DNA of 64,000 nt. It comes from Mayamaea pseudoterrestris. Taxonomy: Eukaryota > Bacillariophyta > Bacillariophyceae > Sellaphorales > Sellaphoraceae. Below are positions 11,493 through 46,655 of the stretch, one piece after another. The DNA is taken from assembly GCA_027923505.1 (NCBI GenBank), contig BROI01000019.1, positions 434,001 to 498,000 on the forward strand, written 5' to 3'. A model generated the notes under the pieces. The model was given only the letters and a program-made list of their open reading frames with translations, was not told the DNA's origin and made no database searches. The position numbers and the translations under genes were made by a program. How positions within the stretch are numbered: the first letter of the stretch is position 1; every line of letters begins with the position of its first letter.

Positions 11493-14400
11493 ATGGCGAG
11501 CATCAGACAGCAAATGGAGGCCATGAGTAAGCTTCAGTCCTCGCTCGACGAGCAGGCTGCTGCTCCGTCTTCTCAAGCAGCATTGATAATGACCGACGAT
11601 TCAGAAGAAAGCCACTCAATCTCCGACTCGGAGGATGACGATGACGGCAGTGAAGATATGGAGTCAGACTTTGAGAGCGATGAAGAGTCTGGTAGCGATG
11701 AAGCCGATCATGTCGCTGAAACCGTCTCGGCGCCGGTCCTGCCTTGTGACACGGAACAGTTGCAAAAGCAGCCTACTCCATCAAGCATGCAGCAGCAACT
11801 ACTAGCCATTAGCAAGCTCCAGGCCATGATGGCGCAAGCAAACGTTCCTCCTTCAAGTGAACCTGCGGAGACGACTGCCGGTGCCGTCCAAGAAACTCCG
11901 CCGGCACCCAATCAGGTGCCTGCTACGCCGGCAAAGCCGCAGCCCTCTCGCATGCAACAACAAATGCAGGCAATGGGCAGGATGCAAGCCGTGATGGCCA
12001 AAGCCAACGTTCCTCCACCCGATAGTCAACAGCCCGTCGCGTCGTTACAACCTGCTGCAACTGTTGCCAATAGTCACGAAAGTCTCAATTCCGACTCGGA
12101 CGGTGATGACAGCGACGACTTGGATTCTGACGACTACAGCAGTGAATCAGACGATGAACCTGCTGGACAAGGACAAGTGAACGAGCCAGAAGTGGCCCAT
12201 TTTGCTTCAACCAAGCCGCTTGCTCCGCCTTCTGGCATGCAGCGGCAATTGCAAGCCATGGACATGCTGCAGTCAATCAACGAGCCAGAAGTGGCCCACA
12301 TAGCTATAACCAAGCCTCTTGCTCCGCCTTCTAGCATGCAGCAGCAAATGCAAGCCATGGGAATGCTGCAGTCAATGAACGAGCCAGAAGTGGCCCCTTT
12401 AACCAAGCCGCTTGCTCCGCCTTCTGGCATGCAGCAGCAAATGCAAGCCATGGGCATGCTTCAATCAATGATGGCCAAGGCAAACGTTCCTCCGCCTACT
12501 AGTCAACAACATGAACCAGTTAAAGCAGCAAACGACATGGACGACTCGGAAAGTGATGACAGTAACGACAGTATGGACTCTGACTACGACAGTAGTGATG
12601 AGTCGGAGGATGAAGATGAAGTGCAAGACGATGAAGCAATGATGGCCGATGAACCGAAAGGGGCTGGCGGCGTTGACGTTACCAGCGCTACCCCACCTCA
12701 TCTCGTAGCTGCCCAAGACTTGAGCGCGGACGACATGGAAGAAGACAGTGAAAGCGATAGCGAAAGCGAAGATAGCGACAGTGACGAGGATTACTCAAAC
12801 GACATCACGGGGAGTGAATTGGGCGACATGACTGGTGACGGCAGCAGCTGGTGCAGCGATGACTCCGAGTCTGACGACTACGACGACCTCATGGCAGACC
12901 TCATGGGCGGCGGAAATACGACGGGAGCTCAGCGCCGACCGACGCTACTGCCGCCAAAACCAACTCTACCAGCTGTGACGGAAGGTCTCGTTCCGATTGC
13001 CAACGCGGATGAAGGGATGAATCCCATGGAGGGATTGGCCATGTTGCAGAACATTCGTTCCGAACTTGAGCAAGTTGGACGCATGATTGTGACGCAAAAG
13101 ACTGGAGAAAAGTTTTTGCAGCGAGCTCATATTCTGGCGTCCATTAACTGGCTTGCGACAAATGTACCTTCCTGTGTCCTCGACCACCTTGGACAGGAAA
13201 TTCGAGAAGGTCTGAAAGCAAAGGAGCAACAGAAGAATGCGGCACCTAAGTTCATGCCTATGCAGCGACGAGGCTCCGTCGTTGCTAGCTTTGATTTACA
13301 ATTTGAAGATGACGAATCGGAAGCGAGCGAGTTGTCAGACGTAATGGTCGGCTACAACGATGACGACGACGAACTCAGCCTCGCTTACCCTTCACATGAA
13401 AATAGCATGCGCCGCACCGAAAGCCTTGGAACATTTGAATCAAAAGCGCTAAATATGAAGGGTGGACTTAAGCGCAACGTTTCGTTCAGTATGGATGGAG
13501 ACTACTCCCCAAGCCGAAGCTCGTCCAAAGCATTCACTGGTCCAGTGTCAATGTTTACCAGCAGTGTGACTAATTCACATACCAATGGGGCCACGGAAGG
13601 GACGGTTACAAACCGCATTCTCCCATCTGTCTCGCACTTTGAATGCGCTCTGCTTTTTGTCGATATCTCGGGCTTCACGCAACTTTCCACAATGCTTGAT
13701 CCCGAGAACTTGTCCAAAACGATCAATCAATACTTCGAAGTCATTACAAAGACTGTCTCTGACTATGAGGGCGATATCCAGAAGTTTGCGGTATGTATTG
13801 TCTGTTTTGACGTGCAGTGGTTGTCTAAATTGGCGTTCAGTGAGTATGTGACTCTTGGCGCTTGGACCTAGGCTCACACAGTTATTTTCAGGGCGACGCT
13901 CTTTTCTGTGAATGGAGGGTAACTTCTACAAGGCCTAAAGCATATTGTGTCGATCTTGCTGCGCACTGTGCCGCCCATCTCGTCAATGTATGCGCCGACT
14001 TTCCAGTCATGGCTTTTGGGGATATTGTTCAGGCAGCCGAAGGGAACGGATCACCTGTCACGCATTTGAATGTTCATTGTGGATTGGGAATTGGTTCCAT
14101 GGCTGGTATTCACATCGGTGATAGCGCAAATCGTCGCGAGTATGTTTACTTAGGCGACCCAATTCAACAAGCCACAAACTCGTGCAACGATGCTACTTTT
14201 GGTCAAGCAGTTGCGTCCAAACAATTCATTAAAGAGCTATTGAAACTTGGAATGATTGAATCTGCAGTTGGGGAGTCAGGAGTGATTGCGCATCGATCAG
14301 TGAATCATTTGCAGATGACTTGCCATTCCTTTCACCGCAACGCAAATTCGCGAGGTGTAACGGAGCACGTAGATGGACTTGAAGTCGAAGCACTAATTGA

Positions 14401-17400
14401 ATACCGACGTCTCATGTCTTTGTATGTGCACCCAGTTGTCGTCTCAAACGATGTGGCCGCTGCTGATGGATTTAAGTCTTCAAGAGGACGCGCAACGTCT
14501 CGAGAAACGTCTCAGGAAGAATCGGAACTCCGGAGCGTATATGTCATGTTTATGAAACCAACAGTCTCAATGAATTTATCAGGTAACTCAGCAGAGGACA
14601 AGGCAGCTGCGCGGCTGCTGAACAACATTATGCTTGTGACAACACGCGAGCTTAAAAAATATCATGGCCATCTCCGGCAGACAATCCTGGACGATAAGGT
14701 AAGCTCAGACGATGCTAAACGGCTTAAAGTATCCGCATTTATAACAGCTAATAGTAAAATTCTTCTGCGATTCAGGGCTTGGTTCTGATTGCCACCTTCG
14801 GGTTGCGCGGGTCCACTTTCCCAAATTTGGTGTCGGAACGCGCCTTGCCGGCGTCGGTGCTGATTCACAACGCCTTACTTGTGGAGTTGGGCGTCGACAG
14901 TCGCATCGGATGCACATTTGGAGATGTATATTGTGGCCCAGTGGGAGGGGTGAAGCGCAACGAATACGCTGTCATGGGCCCTTCTGTGAATCTTGCTGCG
15001 AGATTGATGAGTTTGGATCAGAATGCAGGTATTCTTGTTGACATTGCTGTCCGGCAGCTTGCATCGCAGGCATACGGATTTAACGCCCTGCCACCTGTCG
15101 CGGCGAAAGGATACAAAGATCCAGTACCAATATTTGAGCCTCTCGCTGCGCTTGACCGCTCATGGGGACGGATTGAGCCCAATTTTGTCGGCAGGACTCC
15201 CGAGCTCACGAAGCTAGTAAAAATTGCTCGAGAAATGGCGAGTGCGAAACAAGCGCCACCAAGAATTGTTATGGTGTCAGCCTCCAGCGGCCTCGGTAAA
15301 TCTACTTTCTTGACACATAGCATTGAGCATATTCGGCGAGCTGGTGTGCGAGGGCGCATTTTGGTTGCGAAGAACGTGGGAAGCGAAAGCCACGCCCTTA
15401 TTCCATTTACGACGATTCGGCCAATTTTGATGAAGGTTCTTGGCGCTTATGTTTGCTCACACGACCAGTCGCTTGTGTCCTTGATGTCTGCTAATGACTC
15501 TTGTGCGACAGGTTCGGTCCACTTCAATGGGGAGTTTTCGGTTGTTTCCGAAACACTGTCGCGCGAGCCTTCAATTTCCGAAGCCATCCAGAAACTGATG
15601 GTTATCGCTGAATCCCTCAATGTTCCTTCCAAACTGACCCGACGGGTACAAGGCGTTGTTCTTGAGGGCAATTCACCTGAGATTAAAGCACTTTCGATGA
15701 GGACAAAAACTGCTGCTGCGGCAATTTCCGAAATGGTGACATTCATCTCTCAAATTTTTCGCACTTGCACGCGAGGCATTTGCTTAAATTTGATCGCGAT
15801 CGACGACATACACCATGCCGATGCTGCATCATGGCTAGTTCTGCGCAACGTATTTGAAACGGCTGACAACTTTCTAATAATTGGCACGAACTATGCAACG
15901 ACGGACTATACCCTGCACATTGATGAATCATTCGCAGAAGATCTTAATAGTGTCTACTCGAAAAATGGTCGCTTTGAAAATATTGAGCTCGGTCCACTGA
16001 GCAAGGATGAATTAGAATTGATGACGATGAAGACCTTGGGTTTGCAAAAGCAGGAGGTTGATGCCGACGCCTTGCAGGAAGTGGTTATTCAGTCAGGAGG
16101 CTCGCCACACTTTGCGACAAAAATTTTACGAGATATTAAGGATCGTATGGATGTAAACAGGCCAAATAGCACACTTGAAGCTGATGAAGGTCTTGCCGAC
16201 ATTATTTTGCACCGGTTCGATACGTTTGACCTTCCTGTTCGAAACACTTTGAATGTGGGTGCAGTTATGGGTTCTCCTTTCCGACTCGGCGATATTTTGG
16301 CGGTATTAAAAGAAAGCAGCGACATGAAAGACGAAGATTTAAGACTTCAGACGGTCGACGCACTTAAACTCGCCGTCAAGGAGGGAATTTTGATTTTTCG
16401 TGACAGTCTGCGCGACAACGATACGAAGAACGATCCTGGAGTTTTTGACAACAACGACACTGAGTTCTTGTTTCGACATAACCTTTGGCGCAATACGCTG
16501 CTTGGCTTGATGCTGAATTCTCGGCAACGCCATGTCCATCGGAAAGTTGCGCAAGCAATTGAGGCCAAGCTTGACGACGACGCTTCGTTCGACACCAGAA
16601 AAAAATTGTTTTTACACTGGAAATCCTCCGGTGACACGGGGAAGGCAAGTAACGTGGCATTGACCAGTGGCAAAGCTTTGGAACAAGACCCTGCTGGTAT
16701 TGAATTCAGTGTTTCCATGTATAAGGAGACTCTTCAAATGTGGGGTTGGGAAGGTTTTCGTGACGGATCGATTGCTGGCTTCAGTTCACAGGTTCTTGAT
16801 TATGTTGCAGCTGACGATGTTGCAAGTATGATCAGTTTGCTCGTGGCTTATGGCGGAGCTTTAAGCAAGCTTCGAAAGACTAAAGAGAGCGTGGTGTTTC
16901 TCCAGGACTCACTACGTGTTGTGCAGTCCGCCAAAGCCGCCTCTAAACTCGAAGATCGTTCGATCATGTTTCCGGCATACACTGGCCTGGCCAATGCGCT
17001 GACTGAAGGCCAAATTCAGCAAGATGCATACTGTCGCTACGAAGCCTCATTGATTCTTAGCTTTATGAAGGAGACGCGGACTCATGGGCGTTTGATCCAC
17101 CACATATATGCGTTGTATCTGCAGATGCAATTCTACAGCAAACGTAACCAGCTTCAGAAGGCGATCGCAGTCCACAGCGTCATTAAGCAATTATACAAAC
17201 CCGAAAAGCATTCTATGCTCTTGCGCAAAGTTTATGGCATTGATGCCGGAGCTTTAAGTTTTTGTCTGTCGTCACATCTCCAAATGGTATTGGGTGATAA
17301 CCGCCAAGCAATTCGCAACTGTCGCAACATAGTTCGCGATCTATTACCGAGAATACAGACGGACTTTTTGCAGTCGTTCGCCATGATGTACTCGCTTGTG

Positions 17401-17969
17401 TTCGTCTTGAATGAGAATGGCTATTCCGCGGAGGCGCGAGGTTTCTTCGAAAAAGTAGTCGTCCTGCCCTTTGGCGAACAAGTACATGAAACGGAAGAGA
17501 AGTTTTCTCTCTTGACAATCTACGAGCCGCTTGTAATTTTGCTCAATCTGAGCGTTAAGGGCGACCTTTCCGACAAGAAGCTTGACGAATATCGGCAGTG
17601 GGCATTAAACGAAGACAACCTCATGTACGACGCAGCTGTGAACACGAAGCTTGGGCGCCTTGGTCGGTGCGCCGACTCTGTGGGCGCAGAAATATGTCTC
17701 CTTGTTGCGGCCCATCTGCCTGACTGTCCTGATCGAAATATAATCATCACGAACGGTACGTTTGAAGGCATGTAGCCACTTCTTCTGGAAATATTGTGCT
17801 TAATCTATCTCTTATTCTTTTTGTTTCTCCAGGAACCCGAGTCGCGTTGGCTGCATCCATATTCGACAAGAGAAACGGCCTGACTGTGGCTCACAAGCAG
17901 GTCTACGCTATTGCTAATAAGCTCAAGGTTATGAATCCAGAAACGGGGAACACATACCTTGAATGCTAA
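11493..17969 (+). CDS. Soluble-adenylyl-cyclase-like protein (two class III cyclase domains, NTPase, TPR-like tail)
   Basis: Four exons: 11,493-13,790, 13,892-14,698, 14,776-17,755, 17,833-17,969; introns of 101, 77 and 77 nt, all GT-AG; about 2,073 residues. Residues 1-650 are acidic and low in complexity, with repeated short Gln/Met-rich units (MQQQMQAMGMLQSM) and long Ser/Asp/Glu runs. Cyclase domain 1 (about 710-870) has FVDISGF and, rebuilt across intron 1, KFA-GDALFCEW, the two metal-binding Asp positions. Cyclase domain 2 (about 1,036-1,180) has VMGPSVNLAARLM. A P-loop (SASSGLGKST, about 1,205) and a Walker B (LIAIDDIHHAD, about 1,375) follow, then a long helical, TPR-like end. This is the architecture of mammalian ADCY10, a bicarbonate-responsive cyclase that makes cAMP from ATP. 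Activity and bicarbonate response here are inferred. Confidence 0.88.
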
Positions 17970-41184: not shown

Positions 41185-42666
41185 ATGTCATGGCGTCGTT
41201 CGATCCGCTTCGTCTTCCGTCGTTCCTCATTCATTCTTCGCCCTCATCTCTCACTTTGTTCTTTGTTCCAATCTTCTCTACGTTCCCATTTCATTCACAG
41301 TCCACTCCGCGACGTCTTGTCGGGAGTCATCATGGCGGCAACCTCCATTCCCCAGCTCATTGCCTACGCCGAAACCGTCGGCTACGCTGGCCATCGCGGC
41401 TTGGCCACGGCCGGTCCTCCACTACTGGCCTGGGGCTTGGTCACTGGTAGTCCCTACTTGAACTGCGGTGTCACGAGCGTGACGGCGTTAATGTCAAAGT
41501 CTGATTTGAATGGTGAAGACTATGTTCAAGAGCATGGCGAGCAAGCGTACGTGGAACTCGTGGCGGCGTATTCGCTGGTGGTGGCAGTCGCGTCGATATT
41601 GCTGAGTGTTTCGGGGTTTGGTCGGCTGGCCAAGAATTGTCCGAAACCAGTGCAAGCTGGTTTCAAGTGGGGATGTGCTGTTGGAGTCTTGGTTAGTGCG
41701 CTTCCCAATGGGTTGTTTGCGAGTGGAGCCAAGGAACTAAAGCAGCTTGTTGGGAGTTCAAATGTATTGGCTGGCCTTGTGTCGCAGTTGAAAGGAAGCT
41801 TTCCAGGAGCAGTCAACGTCATTGGAATCATTTATGCTTTGACGCATCCAGTACTATGGTCCATTTACACGACAGTGTTGTTTCTTGGAGGCACCTACTT
41901 TATGATGCAAGGCAGCAAGAAGGTACTGCCAAAGGCTTGTCCGCCAGGAACAGACGTGCTATTAGTGACTGCCATTGCTACATTGTATAGCATGTACTTT
42001 ACCTATCCAGCCAGTATCGTTGGTGAAATTCCGGTTTTGGATTCAGATGTGGGCATCTTCATTGGACCCATTCGCATTCCGGTGCAGTTTTTGGATATCA
42101 AAAAACTTGTCACGGAGGTACCATTGGTAGACCAATTCGGCGGATCCTACATTCAGCTAGGCCTTTCGTCGCTGGTGTTTGCTGCCGTCAACTTCTTCTT
42201 CATCATGGGAACGACTTCTATTTTTGAAAGTGAGGATGGCATTGCATGGAGTCCGGCGCGTGAGCTCTTGTCGCAGGCCGCTAGCTGCGGCATGGCCGCC
42301 ATGGTTGGATCGGCACCCCAATCCGGCTCACTGTCGCGATCGTTGGTTTCGCGCATGACGGGCACGACGAGTCAATTGGCTTGCATTGTGACTGCTGTTT
42401 GCTGGATCTACTTGCAGCCGTACATGAGTATCATGTCGCCAACTCCCAAAGCTGCACTCAGTGCAGTCATTGTCGCTGCCGTCCTCCGTGGATGCGTCCA
42501 ACCCAAGGATTTGTTAAATCTTCAGGGACTTGATGCGATTGTCGGATGGATTGCTGGAATTACAACGTGTCTCACCAATCCTACGACAGGGTTTGGATTT
42601 GGACTTGTTGTATACTATGCGTTGCATTTTCTTTTTCCAACAAGTGACAAGAACAAGGTTGAATAA
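41185..42666 (+). CDS. SulP-family anion transporter without STAS domain
   Basis: 493 residues from MSWRRSIRF, no intron. The frame is open further upstream to 40,582, but that part overlaps the divergent neighbour and is not membrane-like. LRDVLSGVIMAATSIPQLIAYAETVGYAG is the SulP entry helix region (family: D..AG...G....PQ..AYA). Later, GMAAMVGSAPQSGSLSRSLV and TGTTSQLACIVTAV match the G..P.tGS.SRS and aG..T.la parts of helices 8-10, and NPTTGFGFGLVVYYALHFLF is the last segment. About ten to eleven membrane segments. SulP proteins carry sulfate, bicarbonate or other anions. The usual cytosolic STAS domain is missing; the protein stops 9 residues after the membrane part. The basic, Ser-rich first 45 residues could be an organelle signal. 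Confidence 0.85.
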   Translation: MSWRRSIRFVFRRSSFILRPHLSLCSLFQSSLRSHFIHSPLRDVLSGVIMAATSIPQLIAYAETVGYAGHRGLATAGPPLLAWGLVTGSPYLNCGVTSVTALMSKSDLNGEDYVQEHGEQAYVELVAAYSLVVAVASILLSVSGFGRLAKNCPKPVQAGFKWGCAVGVLVSALPNGLFASGAKELKQLVGSSNVLAGLVSQLKGSFPGAVNVIGIIYALTHPVLWSIYTTVLFLGGTYFMMQGSKKVLPKACPPGTDVLLVTAIATLYSMYFTYPASIVGEIPVLDSDVGIFIGPIRIPVQFLDIKKLVTEVPLVDQFGGSYIQLGLSSLVFAAVNFFFIMGTTSIFESEDGIAWSPARELLSQAASCGMAAMVGSAPQSGSLSRSLVSRMTGTTSQLACIVTAVCWIYLQPYMSIMSPTPKAALSAVIVAAVLRGCVQPKDLLNLQGLDAIVGWIAGITTCLTNPTTGFGFGLVVYYALHFLFPTSDKNKVE

Positions 42667-42715
42667 ACACATGTTGAATTGATATACAAGCTAGTAAATA
42701 ATTTTCCTTGTACTG

Positions 42716-44334
42716 CTAGACATCTACTTTTGGCTTTCCGTTTTCGAAGGTTAACTCGGTGCGTGGAAGCTGCAGTTCCAGGTGGTCATATGCCAGCTGC
42801 ACCATTGTCCGTCCACTGATTGCACTCTCGGCTTCGTCCATAATAGCCATTTCCGCAGCACGTGTGACAGGACCACTGCCAATGTGATTTAAGAGTAAGC
42901 ATTTAGCGCGAACCGCATCAGCCACTTTGGCAGCCGCTGCTGCCGTCGAGTGACCGCCATTGTCAATCTTGTCGCCAGTGTCACTTTCCAGAAACGTTGC
43001 CTCGTGGACCATTACGTCCACATTTTCGCACAATGCACGCATTGGCGATGGTACATGGAAACAATCACCTAAAAACGCAGCGGATCGCGATGGCGGACGT
43101 TCTCCGACCAATACTTCGTCCGGCTCAACCTGTCGTGAGCCGTCGTCACTCATGACTGGAAATCCGTTTTTCAATAGCTTGTACTTTCGCCCAGGCCGGA
43201 TTCCAGCAGCCAATGCCTTCTCCTTGTCAATACTTCGCGGCTGGGTATAAGGCTCCCGAAAGACATATCCAAAACATTGGAGCTTTGGTACATGATGCAC
43301 CTCGGCCGCGTAAATGTACTCGCCTTGCGGTGCATCTCTCGCCTTTGCATCCTCCTCGGTTTCAATTTCAGCCGCTTTCGCTATCGTCCATGTTCCATCG
43401 GCATTCTGTGGAATAGTGCGGCGTTGCAACCCGCGATGCCGAAACTCGCTGTAGGTTCGAGTCGCCCCAGGGTGCTGCATTCGCCTGGAACCGCCAAGTA
43501 ACTCATATACTTGAACAGACAGGTAGCTTAGTTCGCAAGACGTCAAGCTCAAGCTACTCGCAATGTAATTGTAAATTCCGACTGGACCGTACACTTGCAC
43601 AGTCCGGCGTTGTGGTTGTTTGCTAACTTTGGCGCTAATTTGAAGGCTGAGTAACATACCAGGAAGCCCAAAAATATGGTCTCCATGCATGCTATAAGTT
43701 AAATATTGATCGTGTCAGAGTGAAATGAAGCTTAACAATGCATTCAAATCTTTCACCATCAACTTACTGGGTGACTATTGACGATGAGAGAAGAAAGCAT
43801 GCATTGTCAGAAACAAACACATCGCAACACAGAATCGATACTCCAACCTTACACAAACTCACTAAAGATCTTTGTAACTTTCGCTCCACTCAATTTTGAT
43901 TTCATAATCTGCAGTTGCACTCCTTCGCCTGCATCAATCAAGTAAACGTTTCCGCCTCGTCGCAAGGCAGTGGCCGCATTGGAACGCTTCGGCGTTGGCT
44001 TGCCGGCACCCGTTCCAAGAAAGATTAACGACATGCCAGTGTCTCTACTTTGGTCAATGGCGTCATTGTCATTTAAATTTGGTGCTAATGACGGACGAAG
44101 GTGCTGCCGTAGATGCGGATTGATGATCCAATCGTCGTATGGTTCCTTGCTATAGCTGCTGCTGCTTCGACGAGCAGGCGCTGTCGCCCAGCCATGGCAT
44201 GGTCCAATTGTTGAAAATAGCGTTACACGGGAACAAGTAACTAGTCTATAGAGATGTGAAACATTTCCTGCTATTCGAGCAGTGCGTCTCATGGTTGTTT
44301 TGCTTTTCAAGATAGCTTCTAGCAAGTGTGACAT
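42716..44334 (-). CDS. Ribonuclease Z (tRNA 3' endonuclease), three coding exons with a 7-nt microexon
   Basis: Minus-strand exons 44,334-43,863, 43,774-43,768 (7 nt) and 43,691-42,716; introns of 88 and 76 nt; 484 residues. Cuts the 3' trailer from precursor tRNAs. The metallo-beta-lactamase fold shows LGTGAGKPTPKRSNAATAL (about residue 103), LIDAGEGVQLQIMKS, the metal-binding motif ITHMHGDHIFGLPGML (HxHxDH, rebuilt across both introns), HEATF and NGGHSTA with LLNHIGSG near the end. The length is between short (about 320) and long forms; the extra part is mostly N-terminal. Residues from MRRTARIAGN (44,292) look like a mitochondrial or plastid presequence, so organelle targeting or two start sites is possible. 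Without the 7-nt exon neither frame nor catalytic His is restored. Confidence 0.93.
43768..43774 (-). other. 7-nt microexon of the RNase Z gene
   Basis: TCACCCA, preceded by ...CAATAG and followed by GTAAGTT on the minus strand. Exon 1 ends in TTT-A before GTGAGT; the last exon starts C-ATG-CAT after TTATAG. Only with the 7-nt exon does the joined sequence read KIFITHMHGDH, exactly the family consensus. It supplies I, T and two bases of the first metal-binding His codon. Confidence 0.9.
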
Positions 44335-44991
44335 GATCGGCCATGGTCGTCGCGCATTGCCAAAGTGATGGTTCCGAGGAATGTCTTAGCGGCAATCGCG
44401 TGACTCACGGAATCGCTCGCGGTCGAATCGGGTGGCTTCGGGACGGTCGCCATCACACAACGCAACTGCCTCACCCGCAGTGCGTCCTCTCCTTTCGCTT
44501 TTCCTTTTCCTCCTCAACAAGGGTACATTTGACCCCTTGTCCTTTTTTAATTGTAGTCAAGAACCATCACGTGAGTGACGGCGATTGAATGACGAATTAT
44601 TGGAGAAGGAATTGTCACGGAGATGGCGCTGCAGCGCCGATGACGTTTCGACGGACGGACGGCCATGGCGGGTCTCGTCGTTCCGTTTATTCTCGTCGTC
44701 TTTCATAGAGTGCTGCAACTATAACAAGTCCAGTACTAACTGTGATCTCTTTTTGCTATTTGCAGCCGCTAAAAGACAAGAGACGATCAAGGAGAGAGGA
44801 GTCTTTTAACACTCCAATTTGGAGTCGGCTGCACTGACCCCCAGCGGTCACCCCCTTTTTACTCTTTTCCTCTGGCTGCCTCGACGATTGTGAATTACTG
44901 CTCCGTTCACAAGAATAGTACAACCAGAGACTCTACTTGCTTCTCTCTGCTCAACAACATCATATCCGACGAAAAGTCAGATCCCGCCAGC
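44335..44991. promoter_or_regulatory. 657-bp shared region between RNase Z and CDK genes
   Basis: Head-to-head promoter region. No coding frame of note (a plus frame from 44,890 runs into the CDK exon, but its first 34 residues look untranslated). A pyrimidine-rich stretch (CCTTTTCCTCC, about 44,495-44,515) is the only simple pattern seen. Confidence 0.4.
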
Positions 44992-46655
44992 ATGGCGAGT
45001 TCGACTGTCACCATGCTGCGGCCCCCTCCAGCTGCTGCTGGTCCGCCTCCAAAGAATGTTTCACCACCTCCAAAAGGCTTTGCCAAGCCTCCTCCACCAC
45101 CAAGGGCTCCGCCGCCGCCTCCAGCTCGATCTCCTGCGAGTTTGTCAAAGGTGCCGCCTCCGCCGCCGGTCAAGAAGCAGAGTTCTCCTGCTCCCCCTCC
45201 GCCGCCACCGCCACGAGCACTACAGGTGAAGCGATCGCCTCCTCCTGCACCAGCCGATGCAAGCAAGCGCTTGCGTCATGCTTCATTGGCAATCAAGGCT
45301 CCGGTGGAGTTGCGCGACGTCAATGTCTTTATTCGGCAGCATCAAGTCGGCCAGGGAACGTATGGTTCAGTCTTTGTCGGATCGGACCGTTTAACCCTTG
45401 AAGTGGTTGCGCTCAAGCGCATTAATACCAATCAGGAGGAGAATGGCTTTCCAATTACTGCACTTCGGGAAGTCAAGATTCTCAAGGCTTTGAACCACAA
45501 GAATATTGTGCGACTGCAAGAAATTGTGACTTCCAAAGGTTAGTATCTGTTGGCAGGGACTGGAGTGTTGGAATCATGTCGTTTGTTTGCGTGCCTGATT
45601 GTTGGCGGATCAAAGTTTCGTGCGTCCACTCTATGTTTCCATGGTGGCTTCTGCACAGTTCTATTCGCCGAAAGTGTCGTGCAGGTTTACTATCACGGAT
45701 CGTTGCCACTTTTTTGGACGCTTTGTATAAAACTTTTGCTACAGTTTTGTTCGTATTCGTGTCGTCATGGTTTCGCTTGATGACTACGTCTCATGTTTGT
45801 TTGATTCGAACAACAGAGGGCCAAAATGAGATTCCCAAGAATGTGTTCATGGTCTTTGAGTACCTGGAATACGACTTGACTGGAATTCTCGAGACCCCTG
45901 AGATTCGTTTCTCGCAAGATCACATCAAGAGCTGGTCGCAACAGCTCTTGGCCGGAGTGCACTACATGCACACCAACAAGGTTATTCATCGTGACCTCAA
46001 GGCGTCAAATTTGCTTGTGAACAAGGACGGCGAGTTGAAGATTGCTGATTTGGGTCTGGCTCGAACCTGGAACTCGGAAATGAAGCGACTCACGCACAAG
46101 GTTGTGACGCTCTGGTATCGTCCGCCGGAGCTCTTGCTCGGATGCATGGAATACACGCCAAAGATTGACATGTGGTCAGTCGGCTGTATTATTGCCGAAA
46201 TGTTTCGTCGATCAGGCTTTCTCAAGGGCTCGAACGAAGCGACGCAGTTGGACCTCATTTTCCGCACGGTTGGCCACCCTACCAAGGAGAATTGGCCCAA
46301 TGTTGACAAGACGTGCCGCCTTTGGAAGCAGTTTAAGCCTTCTGCGGGCACTTCTTTGTTCCCAAACCGTCTGACGGAAGCACTCAAGACCAACTTGCCG
46401 AATCCAAAATGGATGACGGACCATGCGGTGGCGCTCATCACGCATTTGCTGACCATGGATCCTGATGCACGTTGGTCAGCCGAGCAAGCCTTGGACGCGG
46501 AGTACTTCTTCGAGATGCCTGTTGTCAAGCCTCCCGATCAGCTCTCCATGAATTTTTCGGTCAAGACGGTGCATGAATGGGAATGTCGCAAAAAGTACGA
46601 GCAGCTCATGGCCGCGCGCAAGTCGCAACCACCCCCTCCGCCGTCTCGTAATTGA
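44992..46655 (+). CDS. PITALRE-type cyclin-dependent kinase (CDK9/CDKC/CDK12 group)
   Basis: Two exons, 44,992-45,538 and 45,817-46,655; 278-nt intron; 461 residues. ATG 44,992 has A at -3; an in-frame ATG at 44,890 would add 34 residues. Residues 1-95 are Pro-rich (PPPPPRAPPPPP). The kinase domain has GQGTYGSVFVG, the VALKRI Lys, a cyclin-binding helix GFPITALREVKIL (exact PITALRE), HRDLKASNLLVN, and THKVVTLWYRPPELLLG with the activating Thr. Such kinases, with cyclin T or K, phosphorylate the RNA polymerase II C-terminal repeat and drive elongation. Odd: the metal-binding DFG reads DLG (KIADLGLART), seen in some active kinases. The intron falls between VTSK and EGQNEIPKNVFMVFEYLEYD and is longer than its neighbours. 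Confidence 0.93.

Follow-up and report, generated by a model that had tools for sequence, protein, structure and literature searches.

A gene for a predicted short-form (ELAC1-like) RNase Z in a diatom most probably carries a constitutive, clade-conserved coding microexon of 7 nt, TCACCCA, placed within the catalytic HxHxDH motif of the enzyme. The gene lies on the minus strand of the window, a 64,000-nt stretch of DNA comprising bases 434001-498000 of contig C19 (720,860 bp) in the genome of Mayamaea pseudoterrestris (30.6 Mb, 41 contigs), a pennate diatom. The microexon would be flanked by introns of 88 and 76 nt, both short and both equipped with a consensus donor, an AG acceptor and a branch-like CTGAC site, and splicing would join TTT-A, TC-ACC-CA and C-ATG to encode F-I-T-H-M-H-G-D-H. 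Considering the gene structure together with what can be read from translated introns of relatives, it is very likely that the microexon is real and common to at least three diatom lines.

A seven-nucleotide exon in the RNase Z gene

The coding sequence falls into three exons (Table 1), which when spliced give an open frame of 470 aa. With a slash marking each splice boundary, exon 1 ends at 43863 as AAGATCTTTA/GTGAGT (KIF-A/GTGAGT), and the last exon starts at 43691 as TTATAG/CATGCATGG (C-ATG-CAT after the acceptor). TCACCCA, flanked by CAATAG and GTAAGTT, has no second copy within the 801 nt from 43600 to 44400. It is thus an internal exon of 7 nt between GT-AG introns, needed for the reading frame, and it begins H146, the first histidine of HxHxDH. 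Both introns contain a CTGAC site that we take, by its consensus, to be a branch-point candidate.

Table 1. Coordinates of the RNase Z gene features within the window
Feature	Positions	Strand	Basis
RNase Z exon 1, coding part, from ATG to KIF + A; arginine-rich N-terminus, then FLGTGAG and DAGEG	43863..44292	minus	coordinates, translation, kept in relatives
RNase Z intron 1, 88 nt, phase 1, GTGAGT...AATAG	43775..43862	minus	sequence; donor position also read in other proteins
Branch-like CTGAC, intron 1; 32 nt from its A to the intron end	43806..43810	minus	match to consensus
7-nt microexon TCACCCA; completes I144, encodes T145, begins H146	43768..43774	minus	splice enumeration; same exon read in P0123 and P0016
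RNase Z intron 2, 76 nt, phase 2, GTAAGTT...TTATAG	43692..43767	minus	sequence
Branch-like CTGAC, intron 2; 23 nt from its A to the intron end	43714..43718	minus	match to consensus
RNase Z exon 3; completes H146, MHGDH to the C-terminus, stop codon included	42716..43691	minus	sequence, alignment
ATGT, inferred 4-nt first coding exon of the deposited model P0001, probably false	43819..43822	minus	sole route found to MFTHMHGDH

Exons 1 and 3 cannot be joined directly into the motif. When single-intron joins were tested with GT, GC or AT donors and AG or AC acceptors, three ran in frame into xMHGDHIFG (preceded by H, N, D or Q), and none of the three gave ITH. We then enumerated three-exon structures with GT-AG introns of at least 20 nt and a middle exon of at most 60 nt. 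Just one of the 192 combinations restored F[ILVFMT][TS]HxHGDHIFG, namely that with TCACCCA, giving FITHMHGDH. Twelve three-exon products were in frame and stop-free in all, and a histidine preceded MHGDH only with TCACCCA. The sequence-only reading had proposed this 7-nt exon with the same exact boundaries, had held that the outer exons could not be joined into the motif, and had assigned part of HxHxDH to the microexon; all of this agrees with the enumeration.

Chance was assessed by shuffling the 171-nt interval 20,000 times with dinucleotides preserved and 6 nt held fixed at either end. The relaxed motif F[ILVFMT][TS]HxHGDHIFG was recovered in 140 of the 20,000 and FITH in eight, while none of the 20,000 combined FITH with a GTRAG donor after the middle exon. 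Taken together, the join, combination and shuffle results indicate that the microexon is more than chance, even before relatives are counted. A chance fit of TCACCCA in a gene that is a broken copy or otherwise spliced could appeal to those eight shuffles, yet it is extremely improbable given the empty GTRAG class, two long exons that are both open and conserved, and the reading of the same exon in two relatives, one of them with changed bases.

The 88- and 76-nt introns are ordinary in size, since the two introns that we placed by eye in another gene of the window (13791-13891 and 14699-14775) measure 101 and 77 nt. That gene (11493-17775), presumably cyclase-like by its motifs, has an acidic low-complexity N-terminus and a C-terminal part that we likewise take to be ATPase-like. 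Upstream, the RNase Z gene is divergent from a proline-rich CDK-like kinase gene on the plus strand, with a gap within ~0.7 kb (44292-45030), so the two may share a promoter region. Downstream, it lies tail to tail with a 694-aa plus-strand open frame, presumably a SulP-type transporter, with ~50 bases between the stops (42666-42716).

Traces of the exon and its introns in relatives

Metagenomic gene calling ignores introns, and metagenomic proteins can therefore read through introns and spell out their splice sites. We collected 126 related proteins (55,660 residues; 120 + 1 + 5 from successive protein searches) and searched them for the predicted sequence AG/TNACNCA/GTRAGT, where the second-place N is C, T or A. 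Depending on frame, it would read as VTQ-stop, S[YHN][SPTA]VS or [KQE][SL][PLHR]S[KE]. A C-terminal VTQ occurs in one of the 126 proteins (P0123), S[YHN][SPTA]VS in one (P0016), and the third form in none. Under uniform codon usage the chance of S[YHN][SPTA]VS is 1.4e-5 per position, and that of VTQ before a given stop 1.2e-4.

The first of these, P0123, is an exon-1 fragment from a contig of 3490 bp. It reads KIFSKFFWCGLEPLVACFRFSSNHACFCFLLPASFIVTQ and then ends (KIFSK...SFIVTQ-stop), corresponding to a 99-nt intron 1, the microexon and the donor, which implies AG/TCACNCA/GTRA or a close variant. P0002, 70% identical to the window protein, also lies on a 3490-bp contig. The second, P0016, is 60% identical to the window protein, comes from an 11401-bp contig and reads SYTVS...TFPFS-LHGDH. 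This implies AG/TTACACA/GTAAGT, that is, a microexon TTACACA followed by an 89-nt intron 2 and an acceptor AG/C. Two bases of this putative exon differ from those in the window, and I-T-H would still be encoded. P0124, an exon-1 fragment (KIFSE...) ending before any microexon reading, lies on a contig of 11401 bp as does P0016. The equal contig sizes suggest that P0123 with P0002, and P0124 with P0016, are exon-1 and exon-3 fragments from common contigs, each gene being broken into two pieces.

The sequence-only reading had suggested comparing orthologues for the same microexon, and the translated introns of P0123 and P0016 bear it out: the same 7-nt exon appears to be common to these two metagenomic relatives. 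Their exon sequences are deduced from translated fragments, and one query each of the viral and genome contig collections found no relative.

Other relatives show intron 1 alone. In eight of the 126 proteins (P0017, P0035, P0045, P0046, P0050, P0052, P0057 and P0065), V[TS]H[LM]HGDH is read from an open intron 1, with the rest contiguous. In all nine (those eight and P0123), the residue before V is codable with a final A, as an AG acceptor requires. The donor is visible as KIFS[KE] in 10/126 proteins, including the window's own P0122. The acceptor count was reduced from 11 to eight by leaving out P0001, the deposited model, and P0058 and P0107, which are contiguous (FFITH and ILITH). P0011, P0080 and P0091 have V[TS]H[LM]HGDH and were not counted, being contiguous as KIFVTH; 25 proteins were left unclassed, among them contiguous ones with HxHxDH but not HGDH (P0013, P0018 and P0039). 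Nine of the 126 start at [LM]H[GA]DH, and these were not used as evidence because a start codon at that point explains them. Many other proteins are contiguous at the junction, which may reflect either DNA lacking the intron or an origin in transcripts and gene models.

Intron-1 lengths read in the relatives are 48, 66, 99, 126 and 138 nt, all multiples of three because only open read-throughs are visible. Intron 1 is in frame and open in P0045, P0035, P0046 and P0017 (48, 66, 126 and 138 nt), and an unspliced message in these four would therefore encode an insert just before the metal-binding motif. This openness is possibly a selection effect of gene-caller output.

In a quick tree built from the exon-3 part only, with 74 of the 126 proteins and the window gene as its 75 rows, the three microexon rows fall inside one six-row clade (SH-aLRT 100). 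P0002, one of the nine proteins starting at [LM]H[GA]DH, takes its microexon label in this tree from P0123 on the contig of equal size; the remaining three rows of the clade (P0003, P0006 and P0009) are uninformative on intron 2. P0057 and P0065, with intron 1 only, fall in the next larger named group (11 rows, SH-aLRT 82). The microexon rows need three changes on the tree if uninformative rows are scored as lacking the exon. Since eight other relatives show intron 1 alone, the second intron is probably a later gain, inserted 7 nt further downstream. Most simply, intron 1 came first and this line acquired intron 2 a single time, an origin with which the tree appears compatible. We infer this direction of gain, by which intron 2 would have joined the older intron 1 in the common ancestor of a small group of diatoms. 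Gain of intron 2 would thus have severed the microexon from a formerly single exon.

The enzyme, its deposited model and the effects of mis-splicing

The best solved-structure match of the window protein is ELAC1 (3zwf; E 1.1e-48, 169.6 bits), whereas the highest-scoring ELAC2 chain reaches 62.8 bits. Second comes bacterial RNase Z (1y44; E 8.7e-39). The match to 3zwf covers most of the protein (query residues 1-341 of 384), and the window protein has the HxHxDH, GDC, HEAT and GHST motifs as do both structures. Unlike them, it has ~86 extra N-terminal residues, and its HxHxDH motif is spread over three exons of the gene. The full set of what we take to be the RNase Z metal-binding motifs comprises H146, H148, D150 and H151, GDC (354-356), HEAT (375-378), GHST (392-395) and NH (414-415). 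In an alignment of nine sequences (the spliced protein and eight relatives), the motif residues are invariant except N414 and C356/A377; no gap interrupts the junction, and neither I144 nor H146 varies. Among Pfam models, Lactamase_B and Lactamase_B_2 score above their cut-offs and Lactamase_B_4 (tRNase Z) below. The best NCBIfam model, TIGR02651 (RNase Z), gives E 2.4e-63 and 214 bits against a cut-off of 292.95, the model having been built for prokaryotes. The single-domain match, over the long ELAC2 form, is the ground on which the short form is predicted. A mitochondrial role would be a guess from the arginine-rich N-terminus.

The protein deposited for this locus, P0001 (MPSEU_000842800, hypothetical protein), is the best protein match, with 99% identity over 85% of the query. 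It starts MFTHMHGDH and lacks exon 1, the first 143 residues. We searched 1.3 kb for the source of this start, allowing up to two pieces before exon 3, and found one route: ATGT (43822-43819) is joined to TCACCCA over an intron of 44 nt whose donor is GTTTGT, and intron 2 and exon 3 follow. Because the sole route found runs through TCACCCA, it is apparently the real exon 1 that the annotation has lost, with the microexon kept, contrary to the earlier expectation that standard gene finders would miss the microexon. The probably false 4-nt first exon would account for the missing N-terminal part, and the annotation of the locus (43819-44292, minus strand) needs mending.

Could the deposited model nevertheless be correct, with a transcript from near 43822 encoding an N-terminally truncated MFTHMHGDH... 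protein, with or without a full-length form? Its presence in databases speaks for it, as does the possibility of assembling its start from ATGT, TCACCCA and exon 3. We consider it very unlikely, however, because the truncated protein lacks FLGTGAG and DAGEG, conserved in 9/9 aligned sequences, and its TIGR02651 score falls from the 214 bits of the full spliced protein to 136. The model also requires the donor GTTTGT and a first coding exon of 4 nt, whereas exon 1 is intact in the window and is 71%, 62% and 68% identical to the fragments P0123, P0124 and P0121 (over 73%, 63% and 83% of the queries).

In modelled transcripts, skipping the microexon shifts the frame and brings a stop after 190 aa, while retention of intron 1 or of both introns gives a stop after 147 aa and retention of intron 2 alone after 146. 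All four forms thus stop early, in line with the earlier claim that missing the microexon destroys the enzyme. Intron definition is the principle that applies to exons too small for their two splice sites to be bound simultaneously. With seven bases there is probably not enough room for both sites to be bound together, and the two introns are thus likely to be removed one after another by intron definition. This order, like constitutive use of the exon, we infer from the gene structure.

The sequence-only reading had gone further and suggested an on/off splicing switch for tRNA processing, for which we saw no support. Such a switch would turn down RNase Z, and with it tRNA maturation in its compartment, through microexon skipping or intron retention, with the faulty transcripts decayed. 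The early stops mean that splicing could set enzyme output, and two relatives or more seem to have retained the exon. Conservation would equally be expected of an obligatory exon, however, and both donors read GTRAGT, which gives no sign of a weak, regulated site. The genome also holds two further RNase Z-like loci, so losing the product of the window gene need not stop all tRNA 3' processing. One (L003, C1:1072314-1075517) has the motif THAHGDH with an intron upstream of it, and its N-terminus is extended; the C-terminal half of the other (L004, C6:665200-668451) matches ELAC2 best; and an intron inside the motif is absent from both. Regulated splicing is therefore an improbable explanation. 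The microexon is necessary, yet necessity alone is no sign of a switch.

Microexons and the annotation of diatom genes

As presented in PMC8831610, small coding microexons of plants (1-15 nt) are conserved between species and often misannotated, and in about half of them the length is not divisible by three, so that errors shift the frame. The RNase Z exon resembles them in being very small, internal, coding and apparently conserved between species. The same source describes 1-nt microexons in plant APC11 and VPS55, which are likewise conserved and flanked by two introns; they differ in being even smaller, in belonging to other genes and in having RNA-read support, the window exon being known from sequence. 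On-topic matches in the microexon literature for algae and genome annotation concern plants and streptophyte algae. Among the titles and abstract beginnings of a small collection holding few subscription papers, we found no on-topic paper on microexons in diatoms or stramenopiles, and a search for tRNase Z introns in diatoms gave off-topic matches only.

The RNase Z microexon would extend very small, clade-conserved coding microexons to diatoms, and place one within the catalytic motif of an enzyme central to tRNA processing. It shows how an exon of 7 nt can derail annotation, leaving a deposited protein that lacks its N-terminal part and metagenomic relatives in two pieces. It would also represent a clean case of microexon birth, in which a new intron arose beside an old one.
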